DNA of 51,927 nt, taken from the NCBI GenBank assembly GCA_017392525.1, contig JAFOVD010000032.1, forward strand, positions 1 to 51,927, read 5' to 3'. The translations under genes and the position numbers were made by a program. Shown here in pieces: positions 15,431 through 51,104 of the stretch (the first letter of the stretch is position 1; every line of letters starts with the position of its first letter). This DNA comes from Lachnospiraceae bacterium. GTDB lineage: Bacteria > Bacillota > Clostridia > Lachnospirales > Lachnospiraceae. The notes beneath the pieces are model-generated. The model ran no database searches. It was not told where the DNA came from and saw nothing but the letters and a program-made list of their open reading frames with translations.

Positions 15431-15441
15431 GCTATTCTCCT

Positions 15442-26984: not shown

Positions 26985-28691
26985 CTACTTTCCTCTACCA
27001 TTGTGTGAAACCTTCTTCATCTCATACATTCTAAAATCCGCCAACTTGTAGATTGACTCTGCATCATGCTCACGAAGTTCATCCGAAAAGGCCACTCCGT
27101 AAGACGCCTCTACTAAAAACGGTTGCGTCTGTGATGCCTCACGATTCAAATCATCCAAACGCAAGAGACATCTCTCAATATGCTTCTGGTCTTTAATTCT
27201 ATCCCAGAATACCAAAAACTCGTCGCCACCCATTCGAATCACATTGGCACCTTCCTGATCAAAGGCTTGACTCAAAGAAGTTGCAAATATCTTAAGAAGA
27301 GCATCTCCCTGATTATGACCAAATGTATCATTGGTTACCTTCAGCTTGTTAACATCAAACAGAATCATGGTACAATCCTGATTTTCATCTGTATTAAATG
27401 TCTCAAAAAGTGCTTCCGACTTGGCACGATTATACAGTCCCGTCATGGAATCCTGAAATGCCATCATTGTAAGAGTCTGTCTGGTGGCTTCATCCAATAC
27501 TCTTGAATAGATAAATACGAGATAGCTAACCAGAAGAATAATGATGAAAATCAATGTTCCCAACGGAAGGATGCTGACATTTAAAATATCCACCTGTGGG
27601 AATACATACACCTGCAGATTAAATCGAACCATGTCTACAATTCCAAATAACAGAATCTCAAGGAGAGCAATATTCAAAACCTTCTCATCCTTTTCCATAT
27701 CCCGTATCGGTTTCGCACCAAGAAGCAGAATTGTTATAACACAGAGAATAGCTATTCCATGGAACACTGATACAAATGCCGAATAATGAACCACATTTGT
27801 AAAATGTAAAATCGATGTCACCAATAGGAACAGGAGGTTGACACCTGTCAATCCTGCCATAACTCTGTATTTCCACTTTTCCTTAAGCAACGTTTCCCGA
27901 CGTATCTCTATAATGAGGCACATAATCGGAATCAAAGCAGCATAGAGTGTGACATATTCCAGAATACTGTTAAATTCAAAATTCAAAGAATACAGTTCCA
28001 TAAACTTGGAATTACACATGGACCAGAGACCAATCAGATAACTGAAAGCTCCGATTGGAATCAGTCGGTGATAGACTACATCCTTGCTCTGTACAAAGAA
28101 TCCAACCACCATTAGGATATTACCCAGAATAAATAAAAAGACTGCGCAGAAAATCGCCAGCACATTTCTATTGAAGAAATCTGCATAGATATAGTCTGAA
28201 TCTGTAACTACAATGGAGGAAATGCTTGAAAATGCCCCGTCCTCCGCCGGATAGAATGTGATTCTGATATCTTTGCCGCCACTGTTTTTATCCAGATGAA
28301 CAAAATGATATCCGCTACCTATAAACTTATGCTCCCTGAAAAGATCCATACCATAGAGATACTGACTATTGCCTCCGACGCTGACTTCCACTCCCGTAAG
28401 ATAATTTAAAATACGGATGGTAGAATCCGTAGGAATCCCTTTCGGAAGCGTATTTGTAAGGCAAACCACGTCTCCCCTCTTCACCATCTTTGGAAATATA
28501 AACTGGTTTAAATCCACATTCTCATAGACATCATCATTAATTCGAACATTCCAGCCATAATCCAATTCATAGCGCTTATACTGTTCTTGATTAAGTGTAG
28601 TTACTTTATAGAAAAATATGGTAGTACAAAGAAGCGTCAATACTACCCCCACTGTGGATAGTATTGGTCTTAAAATCTCCTTGCCTTTCAT
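26985..28691 (-). CDS. Membrane diguanylate cyclase, 7TM sensor plus GGDEF
   Basis: This 568-residue protein should make c-di-GMP. An N-terminal membrane anchor (about 9-28) is followed by an extracytoplasmic domain (about 30-180), seven or eight helices (about 180-400) of 7TMR-DISM type, and a C-terminal GGDEF domain (about 405-565). FQDSMTGLYNR and DVNKLKVTNDTFGHNQGD are canonical, and the active site is intact (IRMGGDEFLVF). The inhibitory RxxD site upstream of GGDEF is absent (Q and A at those places). I start at ATG 28691, inside the TGATGA that ends the peptidase gene, so the two are translationally coupled; the longer frame from 28778 lies over the peptidase gene. Confidence 0.92.
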   Translation of the reverse strand: MKGKEILRPILSTVGVVLTLLCTTIFFYKVTTLNQEQYKRYELDYGWNVRINDDVYENVDLNQFIFPKMVKRGDVVCLTNTLPKGIPTDSTIRILNYLTGVEVSVGGNSQYLYGMDLFREHKFIGSGYHFVHLDKNSGGKDIRITFYPAEDGAFSSISSIVVTDSDYIYADFFNRNVLAIFCAVFLFILGNILMVVGFFVQSKDVVYHRLIPIGAFSYLIGLWSMCNSKFMELYSLNFEFNSILEYVTLYAALIPIMCLIIEIRRETLLKEKWKYRVMAGLTGVNLLFLLVTSILHFTNVVHYSAFVSVFHGIAILCVITILLLGAKPIRDMEKDEKVLNIALLEILLFGIVDMVRFNLQVYVFPQVDILNVSILPLGTLIFIIILLVSYLVFIYSRVLDEATRQTLTMMAFQDSMTGLYNRAKSEALFETFNTDENQDCTMILFDVNKLKVTNDTFGHNQGDALLKIFATSLSQAFDQEGANVIRMGGDEFLVFWDRIKDQKHIERCLLRLDDLNREASQTQPFLVEASYGVAFSDELREHDAESIYKLADFRMYEMKKVSHNGRGK

Positions 28692-29128
28692 CAATCTCTC
28701 CCCCTGAATATTACTTTTATTCGATGAATAAATCCTGATATTGCCGGACGAAACGGACGAAGCCATAGCCATATACAACTATATAACAGGTATACAGGAT
28801 TCTTAACCGAGAATCTGTGCCCTTTACGAATCACAGATACCATCTGTCCGCGCAACTGATCCACCCGAAGTGGACCCTCTACTTCACTCTGATTATCTCC
28901 AACAAAAAACAATCCGTCCTTTGTCTTCTTACACAATCGATGCAACACCAGAATGCTTTCATCTCTTCGATAGAGATAAACTTCGCCAACCCGGATCTTT
29001 TTAACCGGAGCAATCACAACCATGTCACGCCCCGGAACAAATAGGGGATACATACTATATCCCTGTGGATAAATCTGAATAACTTTTCCGTCTCGTAAAA
29101 ATTTCTCCACATCCTTTTTTTGTTCCAA
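28691..29128 (-). CDS. S24/S26-type signal peptidase-like protein (SipW-like)
   Basis: This roughly 145-residue protein resembles type I signal peptidases with a Ser-His pair: the serine in QGYSMYPLF, the histidine in LVLHRLCKK and the VGDNQ motif. SipW and archaeal enzymes use His where most bacterial ones use Lys. A hydrophobic stretch near the C-terminus (YLLYSCIWLWL) may anchor it. I place the start at TTG 29128, seven bases after AAAGGAG, since the TTG at 29149 has no ribosome site. Small peptidases of this type often accompany PqqD/nucleotidyltransferase/HPr-kinase clusters in Lachnospiraceae, from memory. It overlaps the diguanylate cyclase start by one base and is divergent from the PqqD-kinase gene. 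Confidence 0.8.
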   Translation of the reverse strand: MEQKKDVEKFLRDGKVIQIYPQGYSMYPLFVPGRDMVVIAPVKKIRVGEVYLYRRDESILVLHRLCKKTKDGLFFVGDNQSEVEGPLRVDQLRGQMVSVIRKGHRFSVKNPVYLLYSCIWLWLRPFRPAISGFIHRIKVIFRGRD

Positions 29129-29202
29129 AGTTTTTCTCCTTTTACTCAAAAAAATATATCTTTAATATTACTATTTTCGCACATTTCTCATGGAAAAACC
29201 AT

Positions 29203-29208
29203 TATAAT
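29203..29208 (+). promoter_or_regulatory. -10 element for the PqqD-kinase/ABC exporter genes
   Basis: A perfect TATAAT lies 55 bases before the ATG at 29263. No clear -35 is seen at 16-18 bases, so an activator may be needed. Confidence 0.45.
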
Positions 29209-29262
29209 AGGAATTGTTTTACGAAAATATTTAGCTAAACATTAATTTATGGGGGAAAATCT

Positions 29263-30495
29263 ATGTATCCATCTTCTGATTATACATTACAAAAATTACA
29301 GGATTCTTACTATCTTCTGCCCCTTGGGCAGGGTATAGCCACCTTTCACAGACAGTTGAAAATTAATGAATCCTCAGCAGATCTATACGTTCTAATCTGT
29401 CAGATCTGTAACTCTCTGGGGGATATTTCCAGAGACGAACTTCTGGAAATACTGATTACACATACCATGAAACTGCATGAAGTTCCAGATGAAGAGCATG
29501 ACAGCGTGGCAGAAGATATTGATGAATTTCTCACCTATCTTACCGGCTATGGTGTTCTTATTGGCTCCGCCGGAAATGATGCGTTGCCGTTTATCTCTCA
29601 GGCGCTTATCAGTAATATACTACTGAAATTCTATGGAAACAGCGATTGCATTTCCAACGAACTAAAGGATTTCTATGTCGAAGAAGTAACAGAGCACTAT
29701 GCCAAAGACCATACACTTTCGGTCTACTTCCATACTGATATGCTACAAAACAATGAGAAGAAAATTCTCCTCATCCATACATCTGAACTGATTATCTATC
29801 GCAGTGAATACTACTACATCCTGGAATACCCTGGTTCTACAGGTATTCGTAATATACATCTCAGTCTGGATGGACTTCGGGCTGATTTTTATATCACCGG
29901 AGAGGTTGATGATAAACTTCGCTATGATATATTCCACGCTATCCGACTGGTACTGTCCTACCAGCTTCAGAATCATAATCAGTTTCTGATTCACTCTGCA
30001 TCTATTTTATATCAGGGACGGGTATGGCTCTTTTCCGGTCCTTCCGGCACAGGGAAATCCACTCATACTGCTCTTTGGAACAAGCTCTATGATACCCCGG
30101 TTATCAATGGGGATTTGAATCTTATTACCCTATGTGAGATGCAACAGATGGATCAGCCTATGACCTATGGCATACCTTGGTGTGGAACAAGCGAGATATA
30201 CAGCAAAGAGAAATATCCCCTTGGCGGTATTATTTTCCTGCACCAGGATGACCACAATGTCTGCGAATCAAAAAAAGAAGACGAAAAACAACTATCTGTA
30301 TTGCAACGTCTGATTTCGCCATTCTGGACCGTGGATCAAATGGAGAAAAATCTTGCATTTACAGATGCACTGATTAAACGCATCCCAATCTGGCATCTAC
30401 GATGTACCAAGGACGACGATGCAGCGATTTGCATGAAAGAAGTTATCGATAACTATCTAAAGAAAAACAACGAAAGCATACAAATGGAATACTAG
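29263..30495 (+). CDS. PqqD-like / HPr-kinase-like fusion protein
   Basis: Residues about 10-100 resemble a PqqD/RRE winged helix (YYLLPLGQGIATFHRQLKIN, then LYVLICQ and a DEFLTYLTGYGVL end). Residues about 225-400 are an HPr-kinase-like P-loop domain: FLIHSASILYQGRVWLFSG, Walker A GPSGTGKST at about 259-267, VINGDLNLI and GTSEIY. HPr-kinase-like enzymes phosphorylate some ribosomal peptides (known for paeninodin-type lasso peptides), and PqqD-like domains bind leader peptides. A single chain would recognise and phosphorylate a substrate. The 410-residue length and absence of HPr kinase hexamer features argue against carbon catabolite control. ATG follows GGGGGA. The ABC exporter gene starts 13 bases later. 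Confidence 0.8.
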   Translation: MYPSSDYTLQKLQDSYYLLPLGQGIATFHRQLKINESSADLYVLICQICNSLGDISRDELLEILITHTMKLHEVPDEEHDSVAEDIDEFLTYLTGYGVLIGSAGNDALPFISQALISNILLKFYGNSDCISNELKDFYVEEVTEHYAKDHTLSVYFHTDMLQNNEKKILLIHTSELIIYRSEYYYILEYPGSTGIRNIHLSLDGLRADFYITGEVDDKLRYDIFHAIRLVLSYQLQNHNQFLIHSASILYQGRVWLFSGPSGTGKSTHTALWNKLYDTPVINGDLNLITLCEMQQMDQPMTYGIPWCGTSEIYSKEKYPLGGIIFLHQDDHNVCESKKEDEKQLSVLQRLISPFWTVDQMEKNLAFTDALIKRIPIWHLRCTKDDDAAICMKEVIDNYLKKNNESIQMEY

Positions 30496-30508
30496 AGGAA
30501 ACAGATTT

Positions 30509-32281
30509 ATGTCACACATCACCGAACGCATCGACTTCTACGTCGGTCGCATTAAATCAGGGCGCATACAGGAAATGTGGCGTCAGACAAAATGGATTTA
30601 CACTTATGCCAGAAGATATTGGCTGGCAATGATTTTTTACACTATATTAGGACTGGGCGGAACCGTAGTTTCCCTGATTTCAAGTCTGGTAAGCAAGGAC
30701 CTGGTTGATATTATCACAGGTCATCAGGCTGGAGAACTGGCAAAGACATTCGCAATGATGATTGGCATTGCCGTCTTCTCCATATTTATCAATCAGTTTA
30801 CAAGCTACGCAAGCAGCTGGATTTCTCTAAAAGTCAATAACGAGATTCGTTCCGATATCTTTTCCAAGATTCTGATTACAGATTGGGAAAGCCTGACGAA
30901 TTATCATACCGGAGATTTACTGACCCGCTGGAGTAGTGATGCATCCTCCATCTCAGACGGAGTGCTCAGTTATCTTCCCAGCCTGATTATCAATATCTTC
31001 CGATTTTTCAGTGCCTTTGCCATGGTAATCTACTACGATGCAAGTTTTGCTGTCTTTGCTCTAATTGGTATACCTTTCTCTCTACTTATGAGTAAGACAC
31101 TGCTTACAAGAATGCAAAACAACAATCAGCGCAGTGCTGCTATGTCAGCCAAGATGTCCGGATTTAATCAGGAGACCTTCTCCAATATCCAGACTATTAA
31201 GGCTTTTGATCTGGTTCGACTTTATACCGAGAGACTGAAGCAATTACAATCTGACTATCTGAAGATGAGAATGGAATTCTCCCGTATGTCCATCTGGACA
31301 TCTATCATCCTTAGCATGGTTGGACTGCTGGTTTCCTACAGTTCCTATGGATGGGGAATCTATCGTGTCTGGTCCGGTGCCATTTCCTACGGTACCATGA
31401 CCATGTTCCTCTCTCTTTCCGGAACCCTGACATCCTCTGTGAACTCTCTGGCATCCATGATTCCATCTGCCATCAGCCTAACGACTTCCGCCGGACGTCT
31501 CATGGATATTCTGGATATGCCTCAGGAGGATTACAGCAATCTTGACACTGCAAAAGAATTTCTTGAGAATCATCGCAATGAAGGAGTCTCTCTCAGTATC
31601 CACCAGATTAACTATACCTATCAGACCGGAACCGAGGTATTTAAAGGAGCAAGTTTTGAGGGACATCCTCATGAAATTATCGGACTTGTCGGTCCTTCCG
31701 GTGAAGGTAAAACCACAATGCTTCGCCTTCTACTGTCACTTTTACCATCTCATGGCGGAGAAGCATCTATCCAGTCTGTTAATGGAGAGGAGATTCCACT
31801 GTCTCCATCGACTCGACAGTTCTTCTCCTACGTGCCTCAGGGCAATACTATGCTATCCGGAACCATTGCCGAGAATATGCGAAATGTAAAACCGGATGCT
31901 ACGGATGAAGAGATTATTGAAGCATTAAAGCTTGCCTGCGCCTATGAATTTGTTGAGAAATGCAAAGATGGTATCTATACAGAAATCAAAGAACGAGGCG
32001 GCGGATTCTCCGAAGGGCAGGCTCAGCGTCTGGCAATTGCCCGGGCTCTCCTTCGAAAATCGCCAATTCTGTTACTGGATGAAGCAAGTTCTGCTCTCGA
32101 TGTTGCCACAGAACGTAAGGTTCTGAAAAATATCATGAGAGATACCTATCCTAGACTTTGCCTTGTCACAACCCACAGGCCAACCGTTTTGACTCTGTGT
32201 AACCGTGTCTATGCAATCCGTGCTGAACACTGTGAACTTCTCAGTAATACAGAAGTAGATCAGCTGATTAAAGATTTTTAA
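30509..32281 (+). CDS. ABC transporter half-exporter (permease and ATPase fused)
   Basis: The 590-residue protein has six membrane helices (about 40-310) and an ATPase domain (about 345-575) with Walker A GPSGEGKTT (about 395), a Q-loop VPQGN, signature FSEGQAQRLAIARAL (about 500), Walker B ILLLDE (about 520) and H-loop TTHRPT. The signature reads FSEGQ rather than LSGGQ, a conservative change. No C39 peptidase domain precedes the helices, so a leader would be cut by another enzyme, perhaps the SipW-like one. The most likely cargo is the CBM2-like protein encoded at 33366-33797. Its 3' end overlaps the convergent glycosyltransferase by 14 bases inside a hairpin. Confidence 0.93.
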   Translation: MSHITERIDFYVGRIKSGRIQEMWRQTKWIYTYARRYWLAMIFYTILGLGGTVVSLISSLVSKDLVDIITGHQAGELAKTFAMMIGIAVFSIFINQFTSYASSWISLKVNNEIRSDIFSKILITDWESLTNYHTGDLLTRWSSDASSISDGVLSYLPSLIINIFRFFSAFAMVIYYDASFAVFALIGIPFSLLMSKTLLTRMQNNNQRSAAMSAKMSGFNQETFSNIQTIKAFDLVRLYTERLKQLQSDYLKMRMEFSRMSIWTSIILSMVGLLVSYSSYGWGIYRVWSGAISYGTMTMFLSLSGTLTSSVNSLASMIPSAISLTTSAGRLMDILDMPQEDYSNLDTAKEFLENHRNEGVSLSIHQINYTYQTGTEVFKGASFEGHPHEIIGLVGPSGEGKTTMLRLLLSLLPSHGGEASIQSVNGEEIPLSPSTRQFFSYVPQGNTMLSGTIAENMRNVKPDATDEEIIEALKLACAYEFVEKCKDGIYTEIKERGGGFSEGQAQRLAIARALLRKSPILLLDEASSALDVATERKVLKNIMRDTYPRLCLVTTHRPTVLTLCNRVYAIRAEHCELLSNTEVDQLIKDF

Positions 32282-32294
32282 TCCGCTGATCTAC
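32255..32294. terminator. Hairpin spanning both convergent 3' ends
   Basis: GTAGATCAG and CTGATCTAC form a perfect 9-bp stem that continues through ATTAAA/TTTAAT, around 18 bp in total with one mismatch. It covers the last codons of the ABC exporter (stop at 32281) and of the glycosyltransferase (stop at 32268). U-tracts after the stem are poor on both strands, so it may act as an end-protecting structure rather than a classical terminator. Confidence 0.6.
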
Positions 32295-33359
32295 CTTAAG
32301 ATTCACAATGAATCGAATCATACAAGATATCAATCCAAAGTGACGATATTTAATTAAAGCAGTAAAACATGGGATTCCAATTCGATATACTCGACTTGGA
32401 ATCTTTTTCTTTATGCTTCTTTTCAATGCGAGATTCATGTACTCTCTCGCCCATGTATTCTGTCCATAGAATAAAATCAAGTCTTTCAGGCTTTCCCTGG
32501 AATGGTCATGTTCATATACCATCTTGCCATCAAAAAATACTGCAAATAACAGTGTAAATGTAATAAGATCTGAGGTGTCGAAATCTCTACCACACTGTAT
32601 TTTCATAAGTTGCTCTGTCTCCCTTGCAATCTGCATCCATCCCTTCTCATAGTCCTTGCGAAACTTATAGGACTGCGATGCAAAGTTCTGCACATAGATA
32701 TAAGTATTATCTTCTAGAAATGCGTACTTCGCCCCCATAAGATAACACCCAAAGGAAAACAGCTTGTCCTCACCATAGGATATGTCATAGGATGGAATTC
32801 CCCACTTAAGAAGAGAAGATTTACGGAACATCTTTCCCCAGACATATGCCAGATGACCTGCAGAAAAAAATCCTGCAAATCTATATTCCAAACTATCCTG
32901 AGATAATTTAGAAAAACAGTTGTGAGATGTGGTCTCCACCAGTTTACCGGAAATCTCACGGACATAATTTCCTACAACAATATCACAGGATTCATCGGAT
33001 TCCATAATCCTTAGAAATTTCTCAACCACATAGGAATCATACAGTCGGTCATCGGCATCCATATACATAAGATACTCTCCACCGGCCTCCATGAGTCCAT
33101 AATTTCGCACAGCAGAAACACCCCGGTGACTAAGATGATAACACTTGATCTCCATCCCAGAATTTTCCTCTTCAAACCGACGTCGAAACTGTTCATAAAT
33201 CTCATCCAGTTTTTCGGCTGCTTCCTTATGACTTCCATCATCCAACAGAAGTATTTCAATATTTTTATGGGATTGTTCTGCAATGGAAGAAATACACTCT
33301 TCCATTGCAGTCACACCGTTGTAGACCGGTATGATAATAGAAATGCTTTTATTACTCAT
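32268..33359 (-). CDS. Glycosyltransferase family 2
   Basis: The 363-residue protein has an N-terminal GT-A fold of the family: ISIIIPVYNGVTAMEECI, LLDDGSH, the GVSAVRNYGLMEAGGEY segment and YMDADDRL as the metal-binding DxD. The C-terminal 150 residues are helical with no clear membrane span. Related proteins (EpsJ-like) transfer sugars in capsule and exopolysaccharide synthesis. It starts six bases after the CBM2-like protein gene, so glycosylation of that protein, or a role in the polysaccharide made next door, are both possible. Acceptor and sugar unknown. Confidence 0.9.
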   Translation of the reverse strand: MSNKSISIIIPVYNGVTAMEECISSIAEQSHKNIEILLLDDGSHKEAAEKLDEIYEQFRRRFEEENSGMEIKCYHLSHRGVSAVRNYGLMEAGGEYLMYMDADDRLYDSYVVEKFLRIMESDESCDIVVGNYVREISGKLVETTSHNCFSKLSQDSLEYRFAGFFSAGHLAYVWGKMFRKSSLLKWGIPSYDISYGEDKLFSFGCYLMGAKYAFLEDNTYIYVQNFASQSYKFRKDYEKGWMQIARETEQLMKIQCGRDFDTSDLITFTLLFAVFFDGKMVYEHDHSRESLKDLILFYGQNTWAREYMNLALKRSIKKKIPSRVYRIGIPCFTALIKYRHFGLISCMIRFIVNLKVDQRIKNL

Positions 33360-33365
33360 GTAATT

Positions 33366-33797
33366 CTAGTTTCCGTCGGCTCCTCCACCCTGAACATTTG
33401 TCTGCTTAGAGCAATCGTAGCTTGTAATACTACAAGAAAGAGCCTTGGTAGAAGCTTCATCTGTTGACTTAGCCCATACCTTGTAAGTTACTTCATCACC
33501 GGACTTATATGCATTTGCATGACTTGGTCTTGTTAAAGTAACTGTGTTTCCATTTAATGTACAACTCCAGTTATTCTCTGTGTATACGTCTGTAACAACA
33601 CCTGTAAATAACAATGTGATTGTACAAGCAGTAGAAATATGCTCTACCTCCTTTGAATGTGTAAGATGAATTTCAAACACATGATGGCTACCGTTCCAGT
33701 CCTGTGCATTTACAACAAAACCTGACCAGCAACCACTTGCTGCAAAAACTCCCTCAGATAGATTATCCAGCACTACCACGCTAGGTTTTTCAAACAT
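33366..33797 (-). CDS. CBM2-like exported protein with AASG leader (candidate substrate of the PqqD/ABC system)
   Basis: This 143-residue protein starts MFEKPSVVVLDNLSEGVF followed by AASG (19-22), a leader without the hydrophobic core of a Sec signal. Residues 23-129 look like a carbohydrate-binding module of family 2: a predicted terminal disulfide pair C23/C129, beta-strand repeats, VTDVYTENNW, NGNTVTLTRP and a DEVTYKVWA end, with Trp at 24, 34, 77 and 108. Other Cys are at 58, 79 and 122. A Gly/Asn tail ends it. ATG follows GGAGG. Its place between a nucleotidyltransferase gene and a glycosyltransferase gene, with PqqD two genes upstream, suggests a modified, leader-exported protein. The CBM2 call rests on visual alignment and could be another beta-sandwich. 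Confidence 0.75.
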   Translation of the reverse strand: MFEKPSVVVLDNLSEGVFAASGCWSGFVVNAQDWNGSHHVFEIHLTHSKEVEHISTACTITLLFTGVVTDVYTENNWSCTLNGNTVTLTRPSHANAYKSGDEVTYKVWAKSTDEASTKALSCSITSYDCSKQTNVQGGGADGN

Positions 33798-33852
33798 AAC
33801 CCTATACCTCCATAAATCAAGTAATATTTTCTACAAAAACAACCTCGATTTT

Positions 33853-33861
33853 ATAATACCA
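33853..33861 (-). promoter_or_regulatory. Possible extended -10 promoter for the CBM2-like gene
   Basis: TGGTATTAT on the minus strand fits an extended -10, 55 bases before the ATG. A CACATG-N8-CATGTG dyad overlaps its upstream side (about 33860-33880). This could let the cargo be expressed independently of, and more strongly than, the upstream genes. Confidence 0.45.
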
Positions 33862-33895
33862 CATGAAACTGACCATGTGTATAGTAAAACCCAAT

Positions 33896-35038
33896 TTATC
33901 TTCGGAACAATTGTATTTCGTCCAAATAGGAGCTTCGCTCTCTGGCACTTTTCAATACTTTAAAAAGTGATGTACTTCGGACGGTATGATTGTTCACGGA
34001 AAACCGAATATATGTCATTATCCAAAGTACCGGCCATATAATAAATACTGCCCCTGCCCTTGGATAATTAATATGCATCTGATGATGAAACTCCCGGATA
34101 TAATCCCATAACCTCGTACCACGCATGGCCACCATCTGATGATCCTCCATACCACCAAATTCATGGGATGAAAGAACATCCTTTAAGAACTGTCTCGCAG
34201 TCTCCTCACTAACTCTTGTTCCAATGAGGGACGAATCATCCAGCCCCAGTTCAAAAAAACAGGCTGACGAAATCATTTCCGAAAATCCGCTTAAGCCGAA
34301 TTCCCGAATCAGACGACGATAGATTTTGCGCTCTGACTTCTCCATCCCGTGATTCCAGAAATACGTCCAGTCCAAAAGAAGTTTCAAACCGAATCCGGAT
34401 CGCATAAAGTGATGAAGCATATGTAAAAGCAAGGAAAAAGCCTGATATCCGGGACTGAGTACCGGAAATGAATTCTCGAGTATTTCCACCTGAACCACGT
34501 GGTTTTTAAGCTCTCCCTGTAACTTGGAAAGCTTATGATTCATCCGAACAGAATCCAACTCCTCCGTCATGGATAAATGCAGTTCAATCTCTATCTGCTC
34601 ATCACTGATCATAGCCACATGATAGTTGGCATGCTGGGTAGACATACGCCTTACGCCATGCTGTTCCAACACCTCTACCGCCCGATCAATATCCCCTGGA
34701 TTCAATAACAATAAATCTATGTCTCCAGACTTTCTAAGCTGTGGAATCGGATAATACTGTGCTACAGGGAACCCCTTTAAAATCACAGTCTCTATGCCGG
34801 ATTCTCTAAGCAGTCCCACATAGTATTTCGTCTTAAATAAAAGATGATAATACTGACTGATAGTTCTCATGGAAATCCTGTACACATCCTGATCCTTCCA
34901 CAAGATATCCCCTAGAAGTGGCATAATCGCATGACGGTTAGCCAGCTGCTTTATCATTTCAAATGATGACTCTTCTGCAATTGCTTCTCCCCGAAGCAAA
35001 GAGAGTAAATTTTTTTCATCCTTACTAAACTTAACCAT
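33896..35038 (-). CDS. Nucleotidyltransferase family protein (NTP_transf_5-like)
   Basis: The 380-residue protein has the nucleotidyltransferase core IETVILKGFPVAQYYPIPQL followed by RKSGDIDLLLL (residues about 100-130), where GDID supplies metal-binding Asp residues. This family is found with lasso-peptide and PqqD clusters in Firmicutes, but its chemistry is not established; nucleotide transfer to a peptide or sugar is inferred. The rest is mostly helical, with a hydrophobic stretch near residue 335 (GAVFIIWPVLWIMTYIRF) that could be a membrane contact. ATG at 35038 shares a base with the PqqD stop (TAATG), so the two are coupled. The CBM2-like gene follows after 98 bases. Confidence 0.85.
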   Translation of the reverse strand: MVKFSKDEKNLLSLLRGEAIAEESSFEMIKQLANRHAIMPLLGDILWKDQDVYRISMRTISQYYHLLFKTKYYVGLLRESGIETVILKGFPVAQYYPIPQLRKSGDIDLLLLNPGDIDRAVEVLEQHGVRRMSTQHANYHVAMISDEQIEIELHLSMTEELDSVRMNHKLSKLQGELKNHVVQVEILENSFPVLSPGYQAFSLLLHMLHHFMRSGFGLKLLLDWTYFWNHGMEKSERKIYRRLIREFGLSGFSEMISSACFFELGLDDSSLIGTRVSEETARQFLKDVLSSHEFGGMEDHQMVAMRGTRLWDYIREFHHQMHINYPRAGAVFIIWPVLWIMTYIRFSVNNHTVRSTSLFKVLKSARERSSYLDEIQLFRR

Positions 35039-35289
35039 TACAACTGTTCCAGGAAGTCATGCACATCCTGTTTCATCTCCTGCAAATCTACTTTGTATTT
35101 CTCAGACAGCATCTCCACCACCTGATCCTCTGTATTGCCCTCAATTAAAAGCTGACAGATCTCTGCGCCCATATTGTTAAGCGGGAGCACCTTCTCATAA
35201 TCTTCTCCGGACTGCGCGGTATGTACCAGCCATTCCGTTCCAATCACTCTCTCCAACTTATAATCTTTCCAGTTTCTATCAATTCCCAT
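35038..35289 (-). CDS. PqqD family protein (stand-alone RiPP recognition element)
   Basis: This 83-residue protein matches the PqqD winged-helix pattern: LNNMGAEICQLLIEGNTEDQVVEMLSEKY-like (the LNxxGAxIxxLL core followed by a DxxQDVxxFLxxL C-terminal helix). Stand-alone PqqD proteins bind leader peptides and present them to modifying enzymes. It opens the group PqqD, nucleotidyltransferase, CBM2-like protein, glycosyltransferase. ATG at 35289 follows AGGTGAG. A second PqqD-like domain is in the kinase fusion at 29263. The region to the divergent DUF4832 gene holds a strong palindrome. Confidence 0.9.
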   Translation of the reverse strand: MGIDRNWKDYKLERVIGTEWLVHTAQSGEDYEKVLPLNNMGAEICQLLIEGNTEDQVVEMLSEKYKVDLQEMKQDVHDFLEQL

Positions 35290-35374: not shown

Positions 35375-36838
35375 ATGAAGCAGAATACTTCACGTTCTTT
35401 CGTAACATTTTTTATTTTTTTAGCTGTGATGATACTCACCATCAGCGGTATTTTCTATTATATATTTAAACATCATTACCTGCTGCAAGTCCAGCCGGAT
35501 ATTGCAACAGAAAGTACGGATGCCTTATCCAATCCATATCAGGGATGGTATCACATCAAGGGTTATCTTCTATCCGAAGATCTCGAGATTGATTCCAAGC
35601 AGGTCAAAAATGATACCAATCAGACAGATTCTAATCTCGTGCTTTTAGAAATCAATCTAAAGGAATACAGGGATTCCGATTTGACCGACAAGGCACTGCA
35701 GGATTTTCAAACAATCCTGGAGGGTGTAAAGACAAATCACAAGCAGATTATCCTTCGTTTCCTCTATGACTGGGACGGGCTTGCCGATAAGACCGAGCCT
35801 TCTTCCATCCAGCAGATTTTCACCCATATGGATCAGGTTGCTCCCTTGGTAAACCGTTACAAGGATGACATCTACATCCTGCAGGGAATCTTCGTCGGAG
35901 ACTATGCTGAAATGCATGACTCCAAATATATGACAGATTCCGATATGACCAAACTTGCAAAGCATCTTGACAGTGTTATCGATTCATCGATTTTTCTCTC
36001 TGTTCGTACTCCGCAGCATTATCGAATCATCAATCAAACTTATGAAACTATTACGGCGGAAAATGCCTTCAACGGCACTCTAGCATCCCGCCTCGGACTG
36101 TTTAATGACGGCATGCTCGGTTCTGTCTATGACCTGGGAACCTATGGGGATACCAAATACGACCCCAATAGTACCGACTACACCAAAAAGGGGGACCGAG
36201 AGCAGGAAATTGCATTTCAAAATGCCCTCTGCACCTACGTACCTAATGGTGGCGAAGCAATCCTCGATAATGAATACAATAATTTGATTAACGCCATTCC
36301 GGATTTATCCGCCATGCATGTTTCCTATCTTAATATCGAGTATGATCCTGAAGTTCTTGAGAAATGGCAAAATACCACTTACACCGGTGATGATCTATTC
36401 AATGGATGTAACGGACTTGAATATATCCGTGCCCATCTGGGATATCGCTATCTGATTACCGGATGTTCTATTGACGTTCAAAACCGTGCCACCTTCTCAA
36501 GTACAGCAACCATGAATATAGATATTCAAAATACAGGTTTTTCTAATGCCTATAAAGAGATGGATTGTACCTGCATCCTGGTAAATCAGGAAACAAATAA
36601 AGTTACTAAATTAACTGTCGATACAGACAACCGTTTCTGGAATGCCAACGAAACCACTACCATCGGAGTTGAGCTTCCTCTTACTGAGCTTGAAGAAGGA
36701 ACCTACGATGTGTATCTGGCACTTCACGATCCTGACACCGACAGCGATATCGAATTTGCCAATTCAAACAGTGACAATTCTTATGGCTGCTCCATTGGAA
36801 GTCTGAACATCTCTTCCGGTTTTAAATTAGTAAAATAA
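35375..36838 (+). CDS. DUF4874/DUF4832 protein, membrane-anchored
   Basis: The 487-residue protein has an N-terminal signal anchor (about residues 9-30), so the rest should be outside the cell. NPYQGWY opens the DUF4874-like TIM-barrel region, QGIFVGDYAEMHDSKY holds the conserved Glu that is the best candidate catalytic residue, and the last 130 residues form the DUF4832 beta-sandwich. DUF4832/4874 proteins resemble glycoside hydrolases, but no activity is established to my knowledge. Next to a Pel-like operon lacking a clear hydrolase it could fill that role. It is a paralogue of the cytoplasmic protein at 36781-38109, and the two genes overlap tail to tail by 58 bases. Confidence 0.88.
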   Translation: MKQNTSRSFVTFFIFLAVMILTISGIFYYIFKHHYLLQVQPDIATESTDALSNPYQGWYHIKGYLLSEDLEIDSKQVKNDTNQTDSNLVLLEINLKEYRDSDLTDKALQDFQTILEGVKTNHKQIILRFLYDWDGLADKTEPSSIQQIFTHMDQVAPLVNRYKDDIYILQGIFVGDYAEMHDSKYMTDSDMTKLAKHLDSVIDSSIFLSVRTPQHYRIINQTYETITAENAFNGTLASRLGLFNDGMLGSVYDLGTYGDTKYDPNSTDYTKKGDREQEIAFQNALCTYVPNGGEAILDNEYNNLINAIPDLSAMHVSYLNIEYDPEVLEKWQNTTYTGDDLFNGCNGLEYIRAHLGYRYLITGCSIDVQNRATFSSTATMNIDIQNTGFSNAYKEMDCTCILVNQETNKVTKLTVDTDNRFWNANETTTIGVELPLTELEEGTYDVYLALHDPDTDSDIEFANSNSDNSYGCSIGSLNISSGFKLVK

Positions 36839-38109
36839 ATCGGCCGCTGGTCCTTGAATCGAACCATCTTAATACTGATTCGGTATTTTCCCTTCTTAAG
36901 AGGATTTAATTTCAAGGTCCAGTTCTGAGTGCTTCCACTCTGCACGGACGCATGTCGAATACGGTAGTGTGCCTGTTGTTCCATATGTAGTCCGTGCTCT
37001 ATTTCTCCGGTCTCCATATTCATTTCTGTCCATTCCTGCTCAATCAAAACCCTACACTCTGCAGTCTCTATCATGGCACCAAATCCCAGATTTATTACTC
37101 TGATATTCAGTTCATACTCCTTGGGATCATAGGTAATTTCATCCAGATGAATCGCATATCCCAAATGCTTCTCCACATAATCATAAAATGTTGTGTCACC
37201 GTACTTTATTTCCTTCCAGCGATCGAGAAGATTCCTGTCATACTGACGATTCAAATAATTAATATGTAAAGTCTCCAGATGATTTAGCATCTTAACCTGA
37301 GATAACTCTGCATCCCCTTTTAACACTTCACCACCTACCGGTACCTTAATGACATTCTTTTGAATATACTGTATCTCTTTCGAAAGCTGATCCTTATGAA
37401 ATGTTCCGCAATCATCCTCACTATAGAGAAGTGCATCATCAAAAAGCCCGATCTTATCCAGATGTCTCAAATGTTCCTGGTATAATTCTTCATCTTGCTT
37501 CATTCGCTTCTGAATTCTTGGATTTTCTTTGAGAAGAATTTGGATCATCCCCGGAGTACGGACTGCAAGATAAATATGTCCTGCCTCACTCATGCGATAG
37601 GTTTCATAGAGAACCTTCAATGCATTGTCAGTTGCATAACGTGAACTATGCATCTCACCCCAGTTTCCGACATAGAGTCCCTGCATCAGGATTATAATAT
37701 CCTGATACTGCTCAATAATATTTAAAGTCTGCCGCATATGCAGTTGTATCTTATCTATGCTTGTAGGTTCGGATTCTGCTGCATGTCCGTCCAGATCATA
37801 AGTAAACCGAACAATCAGGTCCTTGTTTTTATTTCTAAAATACGTCAGAATCCGATGAAGGTGATTACATCCTTCCTGGGATATCTGCTCCTCTCTATAA
37901 GCTTTTAAACAAACTTCTATGAGACAGATGGTATCATCTGTCTGCATAGTGGTATCAAGGTATTTCTCATCAATGTCACAAGATAAATCAAAGGGATATA
38001 CCTGATAGAATCCCCTGGAGGGATTTTTCTTTGTTTCCTCTACAAATTCATAATCATTTCTACTTGTGTCCAGTAGAACCTGTTTCTTTTTCCTGCCAAA
38101 TGGTATCAT
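36781..38109 (-). CDS. DUF4874/DUF4832 protein, no signal peptide
   Basis: This 442-residue paralogue of 35375-36838 shares NPSRGFY, VRFTYDLDGH, QGLYVGNWGEMHSSRY, YLAVRTPG and the C-terminal beta-sandwich (INLGFGAMIETAECRVL). It begins MIPFGRKKKQ and has no hydrophobic signal, so it seems to stay in the cytoplasm, or to leave by a non-Sec route. Its ATG at 38109 lies 50 bases inside the end of the GT2 gene behind GGGAG, so it is the last gene of the Pel-like operon. Function unknown; a trimming hydrolase for lipid-linked or cytoplasmic oligosaccharides is a guess. Confidence 0.85.
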   Translation of the reverse strand: MIPFGRKKKQVLLDTSRNDYEFVEETKKNPSRGFYQVYPFDLSCDIDEKYLDTTMQTDDTICLIEVCLKAYREEQISQEGCNHLHRILTYFRNKNKDLIVRFTYDLDGHAAESEPTSIDKIQLHMRQTLNIIEQYQDIIILMQGLYVGNWGEMHSSRYATDNALKVLYETYRMSEAGHIYLAVRTPGMIQILLKENPRIQKRMKQDEELYQEHLRHLDKIGLFDDALLYSEDDCGTFHKDQLSKEIQYIQKNVIKVPVGGEVLKGDAELSQVKMLNHLETLHINYLNRQYDRNLLDRWKEIKYGDTTFYDYVEKHLGYAIHLDEITYDPKEYELNIRVINLGFGAMIETAECRVLIEQEWTEMNMETGEIEHGLHMEQQAHYRIRHASVQSGSTQNWTLKLNPLKKGKYRISIKMVRFKDQRPIYFTNLKPEEMFRLPMEQP

Positions 38110-38878
38110 TTTCTCCCACTCCCATATCTTCTTTCAAAACCCCAAAACGGAATGCCACTGCCAGCACAGAAAATGTCATACGAAACATATATACAAATGG
38201 TTTCCAGCCGGAATGCATACTCACTCCTGATGTTCGACTATGCATCACTGCCGGAATCTCACGAATCTTAAACTTCAAAAGCAGCATCTGGGTCAGCATA
38301 TTTGCATCCGGATACTTATCATCGAAGTGATTATATTTTGAATAATACAAAAATGCCTTACGGTTCAGTCCCTGCAATCCCGTTGTGGGATCAGCAAATC
38401 TTCTTCCTGTAAAAAGCTTAATCAGAAATCTAAACCACACATAGGCAATCTTTTTTGCAAAACTTGTCTCAAAGGTCTCTTCCTGCCCCATATAACGAGA
38501 ACCCAAAACAATATCGCAGAGGTTTCCTTCTGCATCTCTTTTCTTAAGTTCTTCATAAATTACCGGAATATTCGACGGATCATGCTGACCATCCGCATCC
38601 ATCTGGATTACATATTGATAACGTCGGCGCACTGCGTATTTATATCCCAGCTGAATCGCACTTCCATAGCCCAGATTAAATACATGGGTTACCATCTTTG
38701 CCTTGCCTCTTCCCTTAACCAGAAAATTGGTATCATCCTTGGATGCATCATTGATTACCAACACATCCGCAATATCCGAAATCGGCGGTTTCTCCAGTTT
38801 TTCCAACACTTCACTAATATTTGATTCCTCGTTATATGCAGGTATAATTACAAGCAGGTCATGTCTCTTATTTTCCAT
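38060..38878 (-). CDS. Glycosyltransferase family 2, polyprenyl-phosphate sugar type (DPM1-like)
   Basis: The 272-residue enzyme has LLVIIPAYNEESNI, VLVINDASKDDT, HVFNLGYGSAIQLGY, QMDADGQHDP (catalytic DxD) and DPTTGLQGLNRKA, all typical of dolichyl/undecaprenyl-phosphate mannose or glucose synthases and DpsA-like transferases. It should load a sugar onto the lipid carrier. It stands 26 bases after a GT4 gene and close to DUF2304, which often partners DPM-like transferases. A hydrophobic C-terminal segment (FVYMFRMTFSVLAVAF) may attach it to the membrane. Confidence 0.9.
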   Translation of the reverse strand: MENKRHDLLVIIPAYNEESNISEVLEKLEKPPISDIADVLVINDASKDDTNFLVKGRGKAKMVTHVFNLGYGSAIQLGYKYAVRRRYQYVIQMDADGQHDPSNIPVIYEELKKRDAEGNLCDIVLGSRYMGQEETFETSFAKKIAYVWFRFLIKLFTGRRFADPTTGLQGLNRKAFLYYSKYNHFDDKYPDANMLTQMLLLKFKIREIPAVMHSRTSGVSMHSGWKPFVYMFRMTFSVLAVAFRFGVLKEDMGVGENDTIWQEKETGSTGHK

Positions 38879-38904
38879 AGTTATTCCCTATAAATCTCTA
38901 GTAT

Positions 38905-40113
38905 TTATGCATTTAAAACTTGCATAAGCTTATGTACTTCACTGTCTTCCTTGGAGCGAATTGCAGCTGCTCTTGCGCTGTATTTCATACGAAGATTCTT
39001 GTCTAAAATCAAATCTTCAATGGCGTCTGCAATGCCCTCCGGTGTCAATTCGCAGAGAATGCCATTTACGCCATCCTCTACTGTTTCGCGGTTTCCCACA
39101 CAATTTGACGCTATCACCGGACAACCGAGAATCATCGCTTCCTGAATTGCGATGCTCTTGCCTTCATAGCGGGTTGCATGAACATAGATATCACACTGTT
39201 CATAATATGGATAAGGATTGGTTACCGCCCCCATCAGGATGAAATCATCATCGAGTCCCGCACTGTGAATCTGCTGTGCAAGCTTATCTCGAAGAGATCC
39301 ATCTCCCAGTACATACCATCTGGCATGTATATTTCTTCTCTTTAGAAGCTGCATGGCCTGAATTGCAATATCATATCCCTTTTGATAATGCAGACGACCG
39401 ACGGTAAGTAACCGGATACCATTATAGGCGTCCAAGAATCCTTCATCTTCAATTGCCTTCTTAAAAATCATCTCATGATTAATAATATTATAAAAGATGG
39501 AACATCGATCCTCCAATTCCGGATAGATTTCCACAAATTTGTCCTGAACCTCTTTGGATACCATAAATAAATGGTCAAAAGACAGATAGCAGTTTAGGTC
39601 CAGTTCTCTTGTGTACCCAGCCTGCTGATAGTCCACATGCACATATGTTGCCTTTCGCTTGGCTTTGACATGGTCACTTACATAGTAACTTGATCCACCT
39701 TCTAAAAATGCAACTGCAAGGTCGTACTCCTTGTCTTGCCTTTCCGCCCCATCTGACATCATACGCCAAATCAGATTCTTGTATGGATGGTTCTCATTTC
39801 CAAGCATGGCAATCCAGTTTTTCACCATATATCCAAAAAGCCGGAAAACATTTCCCCGGCAAAGTGCCGCTCTGATTACATTCTTAATGAGAATTTTCTT
39901 ACCGGCACTTGTTAATACCGAAGTAGTATCATATCTATGATTTATCAATCGTATTTCGGGAGGTAACTGAGAAACCAGTTCTCCCTGCCCCATTAATACG
40001 AATAAATCTATCTCATAACGATTCAAGTCAATATGCTTTAATAATTCCAGCAAAGCAACCTCAGCGCCACCCTTACTAAAGGTATTAATCACGAATAAAA
40101 CTGACTTCTTCAT
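38905..40113 (-). CDS. Glycosyltransferase family 4 (GT-B)
   Basis: The 402-residue protein opens with VLFVINTFSKGGAEVALLEL and has the donor-site block ARWYVLGDGSL, QCDIYVHATRYEGKSIAIQEAM with the EX7E motif, and CPVIASN. This fits retaining GT4 enzymes that use nucleotide sugars. It starts inside the stop of the DUF2304 gene (ATGA) and so belongs to the Pel-like operon in addition to PelF. It would add a second sugar or a different linkage; donor and acceptor not readable. Confidence 0.92.
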   Translation of the reverse strand: MKKSVLFVINTFSKGGAEVALLELLKHIDLNRYEIDLFVLMGQGELVSQLPPEIRLINHRYDTTSVLTSAGKKILIKNVIRAALCRGNVFRLFGYMVKNWIAMLGNENHPYKNLIWRMMSDGAERQDKEYDLAVAFLEGGSSYYVSDHVKAKRKATYVHVDYQQAGYTRELDLNCYLSFDHLFMVSKEVQDKFVEIYPELEDRCSIFYNIINHEMIFKKAIEDEGFLDAYNGIRLLTVGRLHYQKGYDIAIQAMQLLKRRNIHARWYVLGDGSLRDKLAQQIHSAGLDDDFILMGAVTNPYPYYEQCDIYVHATRYEGKSIAIQEAMILGCPVIASNCVGNRETVEDGVNGILCELTPEGIADAIEDLILDKNLRMKYSARAAAIRSKEDSEVHKLMQVLNA

Positions 40114-40475
40114 GATTTATTCCCCTTCTCCAGCACTTCCAGTCTTTGGAGGATATGCTCATTCTCCTGATTGAGAAGCGAGACCTGCATTGCAAGTTCA
40201 CGATTTCTCGTCTGTAACACAGAAATAGCCATTGTTGTAAGGAACAGTCCGATTACAGAAAAACCAAACAATAAAATGTTTGGAATATAGAGAAATGATG
40301 TACTGTGATTTCTCCAGGGCTGTCCCACAGGAAGCACCGCAAGCAATATCAATCCGATTGCAAATGCGAACCACACAAGACTGATACTGGCTGCCATTTT
40401 CTTCTTACTGAATGCGAGAAAATCCAGAAGCAACAAGATTACCCCCATTCCTATAAAAGCAACTGTAACATTCAT
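40110..40475 (-). CDS. DUF2304 family membrane protein
   Basis: This 121-residue protein has three membrane helices (about 5-20, 30-48 and 65-87), the WFAFAIGLILLAVLP and PNILLFGFSVIGLFL pieces expected of DUF2304, and a C-terminal coiled-coil tail of about 30 residues (ELAMQVSLLNQENEHIL). The family is often encoded beside DPM-like glycosyltransferases. It starts inside the pelG stop (TAATG) and overlaps the GT4 gene by four bases. Its role is probably structural; unknown. Confidence 0.85.
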   Translation of the reverse strand: MNVTVAFIGMGVILLLLDFLAFSKKKMAASISLVWFAFAIGLILLAVLPVGQPWRNHSTSFLYIPNILLFGFSVIGLFLTTMAISVLQTRNRELAMQVSLLNQENEHILQRLEVLEKGNKS

Positions 40476-41923
40476 TATGATAAACCCTCCTTGGTATATA
40501 CTCGATCACTCGGTCTGTTTCCTCGACCCTTCTTCATGAGGTTTCCTCGACAGAAGATATGAATATCCATATGTCGCTCAACCCAGCGCAGGCGGAAATA
40601 TCCAATCATCCATCCCACAAATGCACCGACAAACAGTCCCATTCCATACCAAATGGTACTAAAATGCATGGAAATCAATGCGCCGATAATTGTTGTAATA
40701 AAGAATCCTCCTGCCGTAATAACTGCACCTGAAAGATCATTGAAATAGTACAAAAAGATCAGTTCGCCATACATAATAAACAATACGAAATATCCGGCTG
40801 CAAGACATGGATAAATCTGCAACGGCAGTCCGGCTATACCAATCATTGGCAGGCAGACAATAAAAATCAAAAATATCACTACAGAGATAATGAACTGAAT
40901 TCGTGTCAAATCCGATAACTCTGTAGAAAGCTGACCAAACATACGGCTCTTGGCATTTTCAATATCACTGAGTCTCCCACCAATAACAGACTCTGAATAT
41001 GCTTTGTATCTCTGATGGAAATGAAGCTCCACATTGGAGATAAATATAACCGTAGATGTAAAATTCGTTACCAGTGCCAGAAATGTGGCCATATCATATG
41101 GCTCTGCACATACAAATGTATCTACAACCTCCATTCTAAGATCGCTAGTCCAGAACACAAAATTGTGTACGTATAAACCGCATACATAGAGAAAGTTACT
41201 GATAATCAACGGCCAGAAATCCTTGAAATACGGGAGCACCTTCAAGTATGCTCTCGTATTCTCATGGAAATAATTCTTCACCTGAGCAATCTCAAGAATC
41301 GCCACCACCAAAAAGCCAATAACAAGAGATAAGAGCATACCAAATACGATTTCCATATGACAAAGCTTTACCAAAAGCAGGCTGGATCCAACTGAAACCA
41401 ACATACCCACAAAATAAAACCAGGTAATCTTGGTGTAATCCTTACAAATGGACAGATATAACATTGTATAAAAAACGAGAATCAATGCGAAATATCCACA
41501 ATAAGATACGAATATAAACATGGGATCCACTTGCTTTGTCAAAAATTCATGAATCACAAATGGAATTCCAAAAATAGCACCAAATACTATATTTATCCAC
41601 AACCCGGTATAGAAACACGGCATAATATCCCCATATCGTTCCTGATAAATGACATCCGACATAAATCTGGACAACACTGCATTAAATGGTGACGCAGCCA
41701 ACAATGCAAAGATAAATATATATAACACCGTACAAGAGAATAGAGATCTTCTCGCATAACTAACCTGCTCATATCCCAAAAGCTTCTCCATAATGACAAT
41801 GGTAATCATAATAATAATCATTGGCGCTATGGTAATAATCGTACTATAAGCAAAACCAGCCAGATGCGCTAACAGTGTTTTCTTCCTGTAGATCTTATTC
41901 AGTTTAACACCTATACCAGCCAT
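40475..41923 (-). CDS. pelG: Pel polysaccharide membrane transporter PelG-like
   Basis: The 482-residue protein has about 12 helices. It begins MAGIGVKLNKIYRKKT, the usual PelG start, followed by FAYSTIITIAPMIIIM. PelG belongs to the MOP flippase superfamily and acts with the PelF glycosyltransferase and the PelD/PelE complex to move the polymer across the cytoplasmic membrane. Start ATG at 41923 follows GGAAAGGAATAAGAG, six bases after the pelF stop. In Gram-positive bacteria there is no outer-membrane PelB/PelC, and none is seen here. Confidence 0.92.
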   Translation of the reverse strand: MAGIGVKLNKIYRKKTLLAHLAGFAYSTIITIAPMIIIMITIVIMEKLLGYEQVSYARRSLFSCTVLYIFIFALLAASPFNAVLSRFMSDVIYQERYGDIMPCFYTGLWINIVFGAIFGIPFVIHEFLTKQVDPMFIFVSYCGYFALILVFYTMLYLSICKDYTKITWFYFVGMLVSVGSSLLLVKLCHMEIVFGMLLSLVIGFLVVAILEIAQVKNYFHENTRAYLKVLPYFKDFWPLIISNFLYVCGLYVHNFVFWTSDLRMEVVDTFVCAEPYDMATFLALVTNFTSTVIFISNVELHFHQRYKAYSESVIGGRLSDIENAKSRMFGQLSTELSDLTRIQFIISVVIFLIFIVCLPMIGIAGLPLQIYPCLAAGYFVLFIMYGELIFLYYFNDLSGAVITAGGFFITTIIGALISMHFSTIWYGMGLFVGAFVGWMIGYFRLRWVERHMDIHIFCRGNLMKKGRGNRPSDRVYTKEGLS

Positions 41924-41929
41924 AATCTC

Positions 41930-45195: not shown

Positions 45196-45198
45196 CGC

Positions 45199-47847: not shown

Positions 47848-47879
47848 AATTTTCTCCCTCCTTTCCTGTCATTCTCGTC

Positions 47880-51025: not shown

Positions 51026-51070
51026 ATTGCCCTCTACATAAACCTTAAAACCAAACCAACAAAACAATTC

Positions 51071-51094: not shown

Positions 51095-51104
51095 CTTGAT
51101 ATCC

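Follow-up and report, generated by a model that had tools for sequence, protein, structure and literature searches.

The closest described relatives of the system reported here are the linear polyphosphorylated peptides (LPPs), a class of ribosomally synthesized and post-translationally modified peptides (RiPPs) described from Bacilli by Popov et al. 2026 (PMC13381572). According to the main text of that paper, a RiPP recognition element (RRE) binds the LPP leader through a YxxP motif, and cleavage by LppS, a homolog of SipW, is RRE-dependent and also occurs with GFP behind the core. Ser3 of the core is phosphorylated, deletion of the NTP transferase left the detectable products unchanged, precursors reach 200 amino acids, and the biological role of LPPs is given as unknown; the words Lachno-, Clostridi- and carbohydrate-binding are absent from the main text. 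Here we analyzed a 51,927-nucleotide stretch of DNA from a Lachnospiraceae bacterium (contig JAFOVD010000032.1; "the window"), in which a 143-residue protein with a related leader is encoded among genes for a SipW-like peptidase, an RRE fused to an HprK-like domain, an ATP-binding cassette (ABC) transporter and an NTP transferase. Judged by comparison across genomes, this is a real and conserved system. It is also tied to genes for the Pel exopolysaccharide, a connection that is new here and absent from a preliminary description of the locus. Our favored interpretation, to which we assign a probability of about 0.58, is that an LPP-related, RiPP-type leader system processes small proteins and exports them into a Pel exopolysaccharide matrix, guided by the RRE and without Sec.

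All seven genes that the preliminary description had placed between 28691 and 35289 were found where it put them. They are listed here together with the leader:

28691..29149, minus strand: SipW-like leader peptidase of family S26 (signal peptidase I type); TIGR02228 E = 3e-8 and PF00717 E = 1.6e-4, both below curated cut-offs
29263..30495, plus strand: fusion of a PqqD-type RRE to an HprK-like domain; His and P-loop kept, catalytic Asp-Asp (DD) changed to Gly-Asp (GD)
30509..32281, plus strand: ABC transporter of the MsbA/peptide-exporter type; ABC_membrane and ABC_tran over Pfam cut-offs
32268..33359, minus strand: GT2 glycosyltransferase, by profile match
33366..33797, minus strand: precursor of the 143-residue cargo protein, with the leader at its N-terminus
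33732..33797, minus strand: 22-residue leader of the cargo, made up of F-E-K-P-S-V (the YxxP-type half) and E-G-V-F-A-A-S-G
33896..35038, minus strand: nucleotidyltransferase-like protein of the NTP_transf_5 family (PF14907, 1e-29)
35038..35289, minus strand: stand-alone PqqD/RRE protein (2e-11)

The locus resembles the LPP clusters, as presented by Popov et al. (PMC13381572), in its SipW-like leader peptidase, PqqD-type RRE, HprK-like protein, NTP transferase and MsbA-like exporter, in the YxxPxV(L) half of its leader, and in its location among polysaccharide genes. It differs from them in that the RRE is fused to the HprK-like domain, the catalytic DD is GD, and the distal half of the leader is EGV[FY]AASG instead of the HQxIxFET of the LPP leader (YxxPxVLxHQxIxFETxxS). 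Furthermore, its cargoes are whole small proteins, its linkage to Pel is tight, and it occurs mainly in Lachnospiraceae. Because two defining features of LPPs fail, namely the kinase residues and the distal leader half, the present system is by its sequences a variant of LPP and not a member. The claim that the system was undescribed is half right: RRE–leader binding and SipW-like cleavage have a precedent in LPP (PMC13381572), so the machinery was in part already known, whereas the Lachnospiraceae variant and the Pel tie are new. Searches of open-licence papers gave none on the Lachnospiraceae variant.

The evidence for a system begins with co-occurrence. In a set of 150 Lachnospiraceae genomes (G numbers), with thresholds of E ≤1e-4 for the leader, >330 bits for the fusion and ≥150 bits for the S26 peptidase, we found the leader in 12 genomes, the fusion in 12 and S26 in 11, with all three together in 11 (pairwise hypergeometric p ≤1e-14). 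The preliminary description had proposed a leader-dependent system and had let its case hang on co-occurrence of this kind; its proposal is upheld, as leader, fusion and S26 co-occur across genera and mostly in one neighborhood. The one genome with the leader alone (G146) is 68% complete, and in the one with the fusion alone (G096) a diverged leader-like protein (MSEFKS...EGIYAGSG, L092) adjoins the fusion.

A scan of species genomes with an alignment of the fusion gave a second set, consisting of the best 80 loci of a longer list: 49 loci (L101–L149, E ≤3e-48), which we call the family, and 31 distant relatives (L150–L180). The two sets are not fully independent, because the genomes of L106, L124, L131 and L144 are G012, G025, G118 and G135 of the 150-genome set. 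Near the fusion, 41 of the 49 family loci have a leader gene (37 found by hidden Markov model, HMM, and 4 by eye), 45 an ABC gene, 38 an S26 gene (counted on all open reading frames, ORFs, overlapping ones included) and 24 an NTP_transf_5 homolog. No leader was seen in L101, L117, L122, L133, L134, L139, L141 and L144; L101, L122, L134 and L139 end less than 3 kb away on one side, and L144 is the G135 genome. Among the 31 distant loci, only L154 has leaders scoring >20 bits. Most of the named fusion matches are from Lachnospiraceae, with two from Erysipelotrichaceae (L132, L147), and cultured carriers include Anaerobutyricum hallii (L130), Fusicatenibacter saccharivorans (L131), Coprococcus catus (L124) and Eubacterium plexicaudatum (L118). 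G000 (C38, C51), G022 (C55), G029 (C51) and G034 have leader genes that lie on a different contig from the fusion or are separated from it by 28 kb. The window's own genome, from an assembly that is 78.6% complete, has one fusion match and one S26 match at the thresholds used. The distribution of these sequences suggests that leader genes at other places in a genome are served by a single system.

The leader at the N-terminus of the window cargo has the conserved form YxKPxV...EGV[F/Y]AASG. Searching the DNA of the 150 genomes for EG[V/I/M][F/Y]AA followed by S, T or a few other residues and then G gave 16 matches in 10 genomes, of which 15 (in 9 genomes) are near the N-termini of small proteins and one falls inside a frame of 999 residues; with the pattern reversed as a control there were 3 matches in 3 genomes. 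The leader is therefore more than chance. The leader HMM (E ≤1e-4) matched at 24 places in 12 of the 150 genomes. A class-wide draw at 1e-3 gave matches in 3 of 341 genomes, which are the window's own genome, G022 (Lachnospiraceae) and G166; the leader in G166 is related, reads mostly DVITTSG, and heads peptides of ~50 residues. Five similar small peptides (MKNYIKPEVKINSFISEDVITTSG... type) lie on five G166 contigs (L181, L184, L186, L187 and L188), and in 3 of these 5 loci the adjoining large protein begins with an apparent signal peptide.

We examined the anatomy of the leader in 74 non-redundant sequences, picked by a leader HMM score >20 bits (five by eye) and a regular expression demanding [S/T]-G; the L147 cargo, which the expression had dropped in the cargo clustering, was restored by hand. 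A [Y/F/W]..P motif lies 16 residues ahead of the [F/Y] in 68 of the 74. The most conserved residues are Pro in 69/73, Glu in 74/74, Gly in 71, Val or Ile in 74, [F/Y] in 74, Ala, Gly or Ser at the second position after [F/Y] in 72 (the other two have Glu or Tyr in place of the second Ala), Ser in 74 and Gly in 74. Invariance of the Ser-Gly is partly built in, because the collection required [S/T]-G. Since such selection favors conserved residues, the sharp edge of conservation, at which information content falls from 4.32 bits at the last Gly to 1.53 and 0.57 at the next two positions, is more telling than exact invariance. The leader was correctly described as non-Sec, since its hydropathy is too low for a Sec signal: the best 12-residue mean is 1.29 in the window leader, and across 71 leaders the maximum is 1.54 and the average 0.73. 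A hydropathy scan found no strongly hydrophobic stretch in either leaders or mature parts.

The other line of evidence concerns Pel. Around the leader system, the window contains:

26985..28691, minus strand: GGDEF (diguanylate cyclase type) membrane protein, by profile match
35375..36838, plus strand: DUF4874/DUF4832 protein, by profile match
36781..38109, minus strand: second DUF4874/DUF4832 protein, by profile match
38060..40113, minus strand: two glycosyltransferases by profile scan, GT2-type at 38060-38878 and group-1 type at 38905-40113
40475..41923, minus strand: PelG (PF16933, E = 3e-143)
41930..43357, minus strand: PelF-type glycosyltransferase (DUF3492, E = 4e-78; the name PelF was assigned in this analysis)
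43360..51106, minus strand: DUF2194 protein, 882-residue membrane protein, PelE-like protein and epimerase-domain PelD-like protein (Pel names deduced from gene order and from the loci described in PMC7112168)

The segment 38060-51106 is a probable Gram-positive-type Pel exopolysaccharide cluster, in which the PelF- and PelG-type genes are side by side (40475-43357). It is like the Gram-positive Pel loci presented in the main text of Whitfield et al. 2020 (PMC7112168) in having PelF/PelG-type genes, an epimerase-domain PelD-like gene, DUF4832 genes, and GGDEF nearby. That paper places DUF4832 genes next to clostridial and streptococcal pel loci, and a DUF4832 protein of Streptococcus intermedius is reported to be an active glycoside hydrolase that disrupts preformed Pel-dependent aggregates (PMC12345266). 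Whitfield et al. also describe Roseburia pel loci inside a larger cluster of unclear meaning, with NTase and PTase genes named in the legend; their main text does not contain the words HPr, PqqD or signal peptidase.

PelG is present in all 12 leader genomes, compared to 30 of the 150 overall (p = 5e-10). Among 17 genomes with only weaker S26 matches (63-139 bits), it is present in 2 (Fisher 1.8e-6 vs the leader genomes); we read these 17 as mostly LPP-like because 16 of them also have an HprK match. In 10 genomes of the 150-genome set PelG and the fusion are on one contig, 8.9-19.0 kb apart; in G025 they are on two contigs, both near a contig end, and in G146 PelG and the leaders are on separate contigs. 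For the named loci we checked 30 genomes from 50 loci (L101-L149 and L154), mainly those with longer contigs, and found PelG in 27. Same-contig PelG and fusion were confirmed by sequence in 17 of 20 cases tried, at distances of 8.2-26.3 kb, and in L117, L119 and L135 PelG is on another contig. Seven more of these genomes have PelG. Three of them (L106, L131 and L144) were already counted as G012, G118 and G135, L118 carries PelF and PelD-like genes in the 10 kb beside its locus, and for L104, L124 and L133 the finding is the presence of PelG in the genome.

The cargoes are diverse. The window's own genome has three leader proteins with differing bodies on three contigs (the window, C51 and C38), and the one on C51 is possibly a distant relative of the window cargo (E = 5e-4 over residues 1-107, a span that takes in the leader). 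After the leader, mature cargoes are ~50-140 residues long. The cargo collection comprised 77 leader proteins, five of which were recognized by eye; the 72 that differ in their mature parts were retained. By profile comparison, one leader is common to mature parts without detectable mutual homology. Of the body types compared, the CYTV type is homologous to the window type (hhalign probability 93.8, E = 1.7e-7); the CBM_2-type, Cys-rich and Butyrivibrio-type bodies have no significant relation to it (hhalign probabilities ≤1.9). Many members of the window-type and CYTV-type alignment have spaced His, with Cys near both ends, which are perhaps a metal site or a disulphide. Between the window cargo and its counterpart in Lachnospiraceae AC2012 (L145) there is 82% identity, with dN/dS ~0.11 and dS ~1.1, which indicates that the window cargo is under purifying selection.

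The cargo had been called CBM2-like, a label for which we found no support in the window protein. The window cargo has no Pfam or NCBIfam match; CBM_2 (PF00553) is over the cut-off in one L102 and one L113 cargo and was matched by 3 of 28 aligned cargoes, the window protein not among them, and the comparison of the CBM_2-passing cargoes with the window protein gave an hhalign probability of 1.5. A single-linkage merger of the CBM_2-type with the window-type cargoes was also dropped, because profile comparison gave it no support. Searches of PDB sequences with the cargo, peptidase and Cys-rich profiles returned nothing useful. In G146 (L096, L097) there are leader proteins with related bodies, and L096 has a weak match to the ubiquitin family (PF00240, E = 0.0019, below the cut-off).

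The HprK-like domain speaks against a strict LPP pathway. The first catalytic Asp is Gly (NGD) in all 49 family loci in the alignment, whereas NDD is the rule in the 31 distant loci (27 of 32 entries; the exceptions are two in L152, and L154, L166 and L178). The weaker fusion matches without a leader in the 150-genome set, in G049 (L093) and G023 (L094), have other residues at that position. Family members keep the His, the P-loop Lys and the Ser, so they probably still bind ATP, and phosphotransfer of the canonical kind is in doubt. A tree of HprK domains places the leader loci together in a weakly supported group (0.57) of 60 tips, of which 49 have a leader. In BsfK, a lasso-peptide kinase, both Asp residues are described as mattering, D186 being the equivalent of the first (PMC10368454). 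Because one of the two catalytic Asp residues is lost, the HprK-like domain may not act as a normal peptide kinase. The kinase step of the preliminary description is weakened by this loss.

A strict LPP pathway would have the HprK-like protein phosphorylate a core Ser, perhaps the invariant Ser of S-G, and the NTP transferase add a sugar or nucleotide, with the variable C-terminal part being a long core. The gene types and the YxxPxVL half of the leader are as in LPP, the reported length of LPP precursors (PMC13381572) would accommodate such a core, and a Ser is present at 74 of 74 leader–core junctions, although the collection favored Ser. However, the Asp-to-Gly change just described, at a position equivalent to one that matters in BsfK (PMC10368454), and the presence of an NTP transferase in only about half of the family loci (24/49) make this pathway unlikely.

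The favored interpretation, an RRE-guided export system for small proteins of the Pel matrix, starts from three regularities revealed by comparing sequences, namely the leader shared by different bodies, the coincidence of leader, fusion and peptidase, and the linkage to Pel. From these we infer leader binding, cleavage and its site, ABC export, modification and interaction with Pel. By homology to LppB, the PqqD-type domain of the fusion would bind the YxKPxV half of the leader, and the fusion would present the E-G-V-[F/Y]-A-A-S-G half to the SipW-like peptidase, which would cut in the cytoplasm, inside or just after that half. The most likely cut sites are between the second Ala and the Ser of [FY]-A-A-S-G, matching the LPP cut after F-x-[T/A], or after the final Gly; in the latter case A-S-G would fit the small-residue P3/P1 rule of signal peptidases better than A-A does. 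The dedicated MsbA-like ABC transporter would then export the cargo without Sec, and outside the cell the cargo would join or bind the Pel polymer made by the adjoining genes. Cyclic di-GMP, through the neighboring GGDEF protein, would be the likely common control, and the NTP transferase an optional modifier. We also considered a bolder version, that this is a general non-Sec route for secretion of matrix proteins in which cleavage leaves the invariant Ser-Gly at the N-terminus of the mature protein or close to it, as a handle by which the HprK-like protein and NTP transferase link the cargo covalently to a phospho-sugar, tying it to Pel; we regard this combination as a long shot.

Several observations count against export into a Pel matrix by one linked system. 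G096 has the fusion, but neither S26 nor PelG reaches the thresholds used. The S26 gene of G025 lies on a different contig from its fusion, and in G135 a distance of ~37 kb separates the fusion from the leaders, ABC gene and S26 gene. No leader was found in L117 or L133 despite ~10 kb on both sides, and S26 was not found in 11 of the 49 family loci, some of them at contig ends. Three Butyrivibrio genomes have the system without PelG. PelF or PelG is in the 10 kb flanks of only 5 of the 49 family loci, because the usual distance to PelG is larger (three of the 31 distant loci, L154, L162 and L176, also have PelF or PelG in these flanks), and part of the Pel linkage could be due to common ancestry inside a single family. 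Lastly, we know of no precedent for export of a folded domain by an MsbA-type ABC protein, so the cargo may need to be unfolded for export.

Lipids are often what MsbA-like ABC proteins transport, and the locus is situated among polysaccharide genes. The ABC protein and NTP transferase might accordingly serve the export of polysaccharide (lipid-linked sugar), with the leader proteins being intracellular regulators or chaperones of Pel synthesis that are cut by the peptidase. This is improbable, since the ABC gene tracks the fusion (in all but four family loci), some leader genes are away from the Pel locus, and some cargo classes are Cys-rich or CBM_2-like, which is typical of secreted proteins. 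Least credible is export of the cargoes as effectors or bacteriocin-like toxins instead of matrix parts, which the variable C-terminal parts behind one leader, with two or three per locus in some genomes, would suit, and against which stand the Pel linkage, the CBM_2 matches of some cargoes and the purifying selection on the window cargo.

RiPP machinery is usually thought to make small modified peptides. If the favored interpretation is right, common gut and rumen bacteria use RiPP recognition logic to export small proteins in their entirety and in this way provide a Pel biofilm with its protein component; matrix assembly by such a route would be new. The interpretation would also suggest a role for LPP-like clusters, point to candidate proteins of the Pel matrix in Lachnospiraceae, and yield an export tag that is portable. 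The points most likely to surprise specialists are the whole-protein cargo on a RiPP leader and the tight tie to Pel.

We compared the system with three others. SipW-type peptidases are tied to the biofilm matrix in Bacillus subtilis, through SipW-TasA/TapA export. Here, in contrast, the cargo has no Sec signal peptide, an ABC exporter adjoins and an RRE is present; Sec-dependent SipW export was rejected because the leaders have no hydrophobic Sec signal. C39 double-glycine exporters cut a short leader at a site of small residues, either ahead of ABC export or in the course of it. The window ABC protein has no C39 match in the Pfam scan, as the preliminary description had said, the system has a separate S26 peptidase, and its leaders end in S-G and not G-G; without a C39 domain on the ABC protein, C39 bacteriocin export was rejected.

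Like the clusters of paeninodin-type lasso peptides, the locus has a PqqD domain, an HprK-like kinase, an NTP transferase and a [Y/W]xxP leader. A lasso cyclase query from L133 matched only a housekeeping-type AsnB in the window, and among the fetched neighborhoods only L133 itself, which bears out the absence of a cyclase noted earlier; no B2 cysteine peptidase was matched among the scanned window genes, with no dedicated model run. A lasso peptide was rejected because the cluster has no macrolactam cyclase. The asparagine synthase-like gene at window 10445-12037, weakly matched by the cyclase query, adjoins glutamine synthetase, ammonium transporter and glutamate synthase genes (named by eye) and is a housekeeping gene. 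In L133, an apparent lasso cyclase, a PqqD-like gene and an ABC gene (13704-17600) are a few kb from a family-type fusion and S26. A similar arrangement is reported for LPP and paeninodin clusters in Bacilli.

LPP-like sets, consisting of a DD-type HprK, a separate PqqD and S26, were seen in L171 and L179 (Ruminiclostridium cellobioparum), L173 (Clostridium pascui) and L177 (Paenibacillus contaminans). The sets of L171, L179 and L173 are accompanied by short YxxP peptides of ~33-67 amino acids, which suggests that the range of LPP-like RiPPs extends to Clostridia; in L177 no ABC gene or precursor was seen. The sets of L173 and L177 have 22-36% identity to the window proteins over matched parts, and their S26 peptidases 32-36% identity to that of the window. 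Another leader type, WxxP and ending in ..NEYVAACG or ..QVYAAGC, is near GD-type HprK genes in L152 (Lachnospiraceae bacterium TWA4, 10273-13243) and L178 (9424-9756), and is possibly a sister export or RiPP family; L152 also has an S26 match and an apparent radical SAM gene.

Among the individual proteins of the locus, the S26 peptidase retains Ser32 and His70 in all 7 copies aligned; its N-terminus has no hydrophobic helix, and its C-terminus is weakly hydrophobic. The PqqD domain of the fusion has a Pfam match in 7 of 8 aligned homologs, the window copy being the exception, and matches of HprK models to the fusion are weak (E about 0.01-0.02). The G-D-[I/V]-D motif of the NTP_transf_5 protein is kept in 6 aligned copies. 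Besides the fused domain the window has its stand-alone PqqD, few copies of which were seen at other loci; no counterpart ORF of ≥60 amino acids was found in AC2012 (L145). The preliminary description made the GT2 glycosyltransferase part of the system, which its distribution does not support: any GT2 match occurs in 8 of the 49 family loci, and the gene is probably accessory rather than core, because a strong match beside the cargo is confined to L145 (452 bits).

The likely ATG of the GGDEF gene overlaps the stop codon of the S26 peptidase gene by 1 base, which suggests one transcript. A scan of five sources found no Rfam c-di-GMP riboswitch, the window has no Rfam match at gathering score, and by eye, with no motif search made, no common motif was apparent upstream of the three leader genes of the window's own genome. 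On contig C51 of this genome there is a T-box leader (L029, 12385-12621), and two TwoAYGGAY RNAs are near the AC2012 locus (L145, 3726-3887 and 4802-4957).

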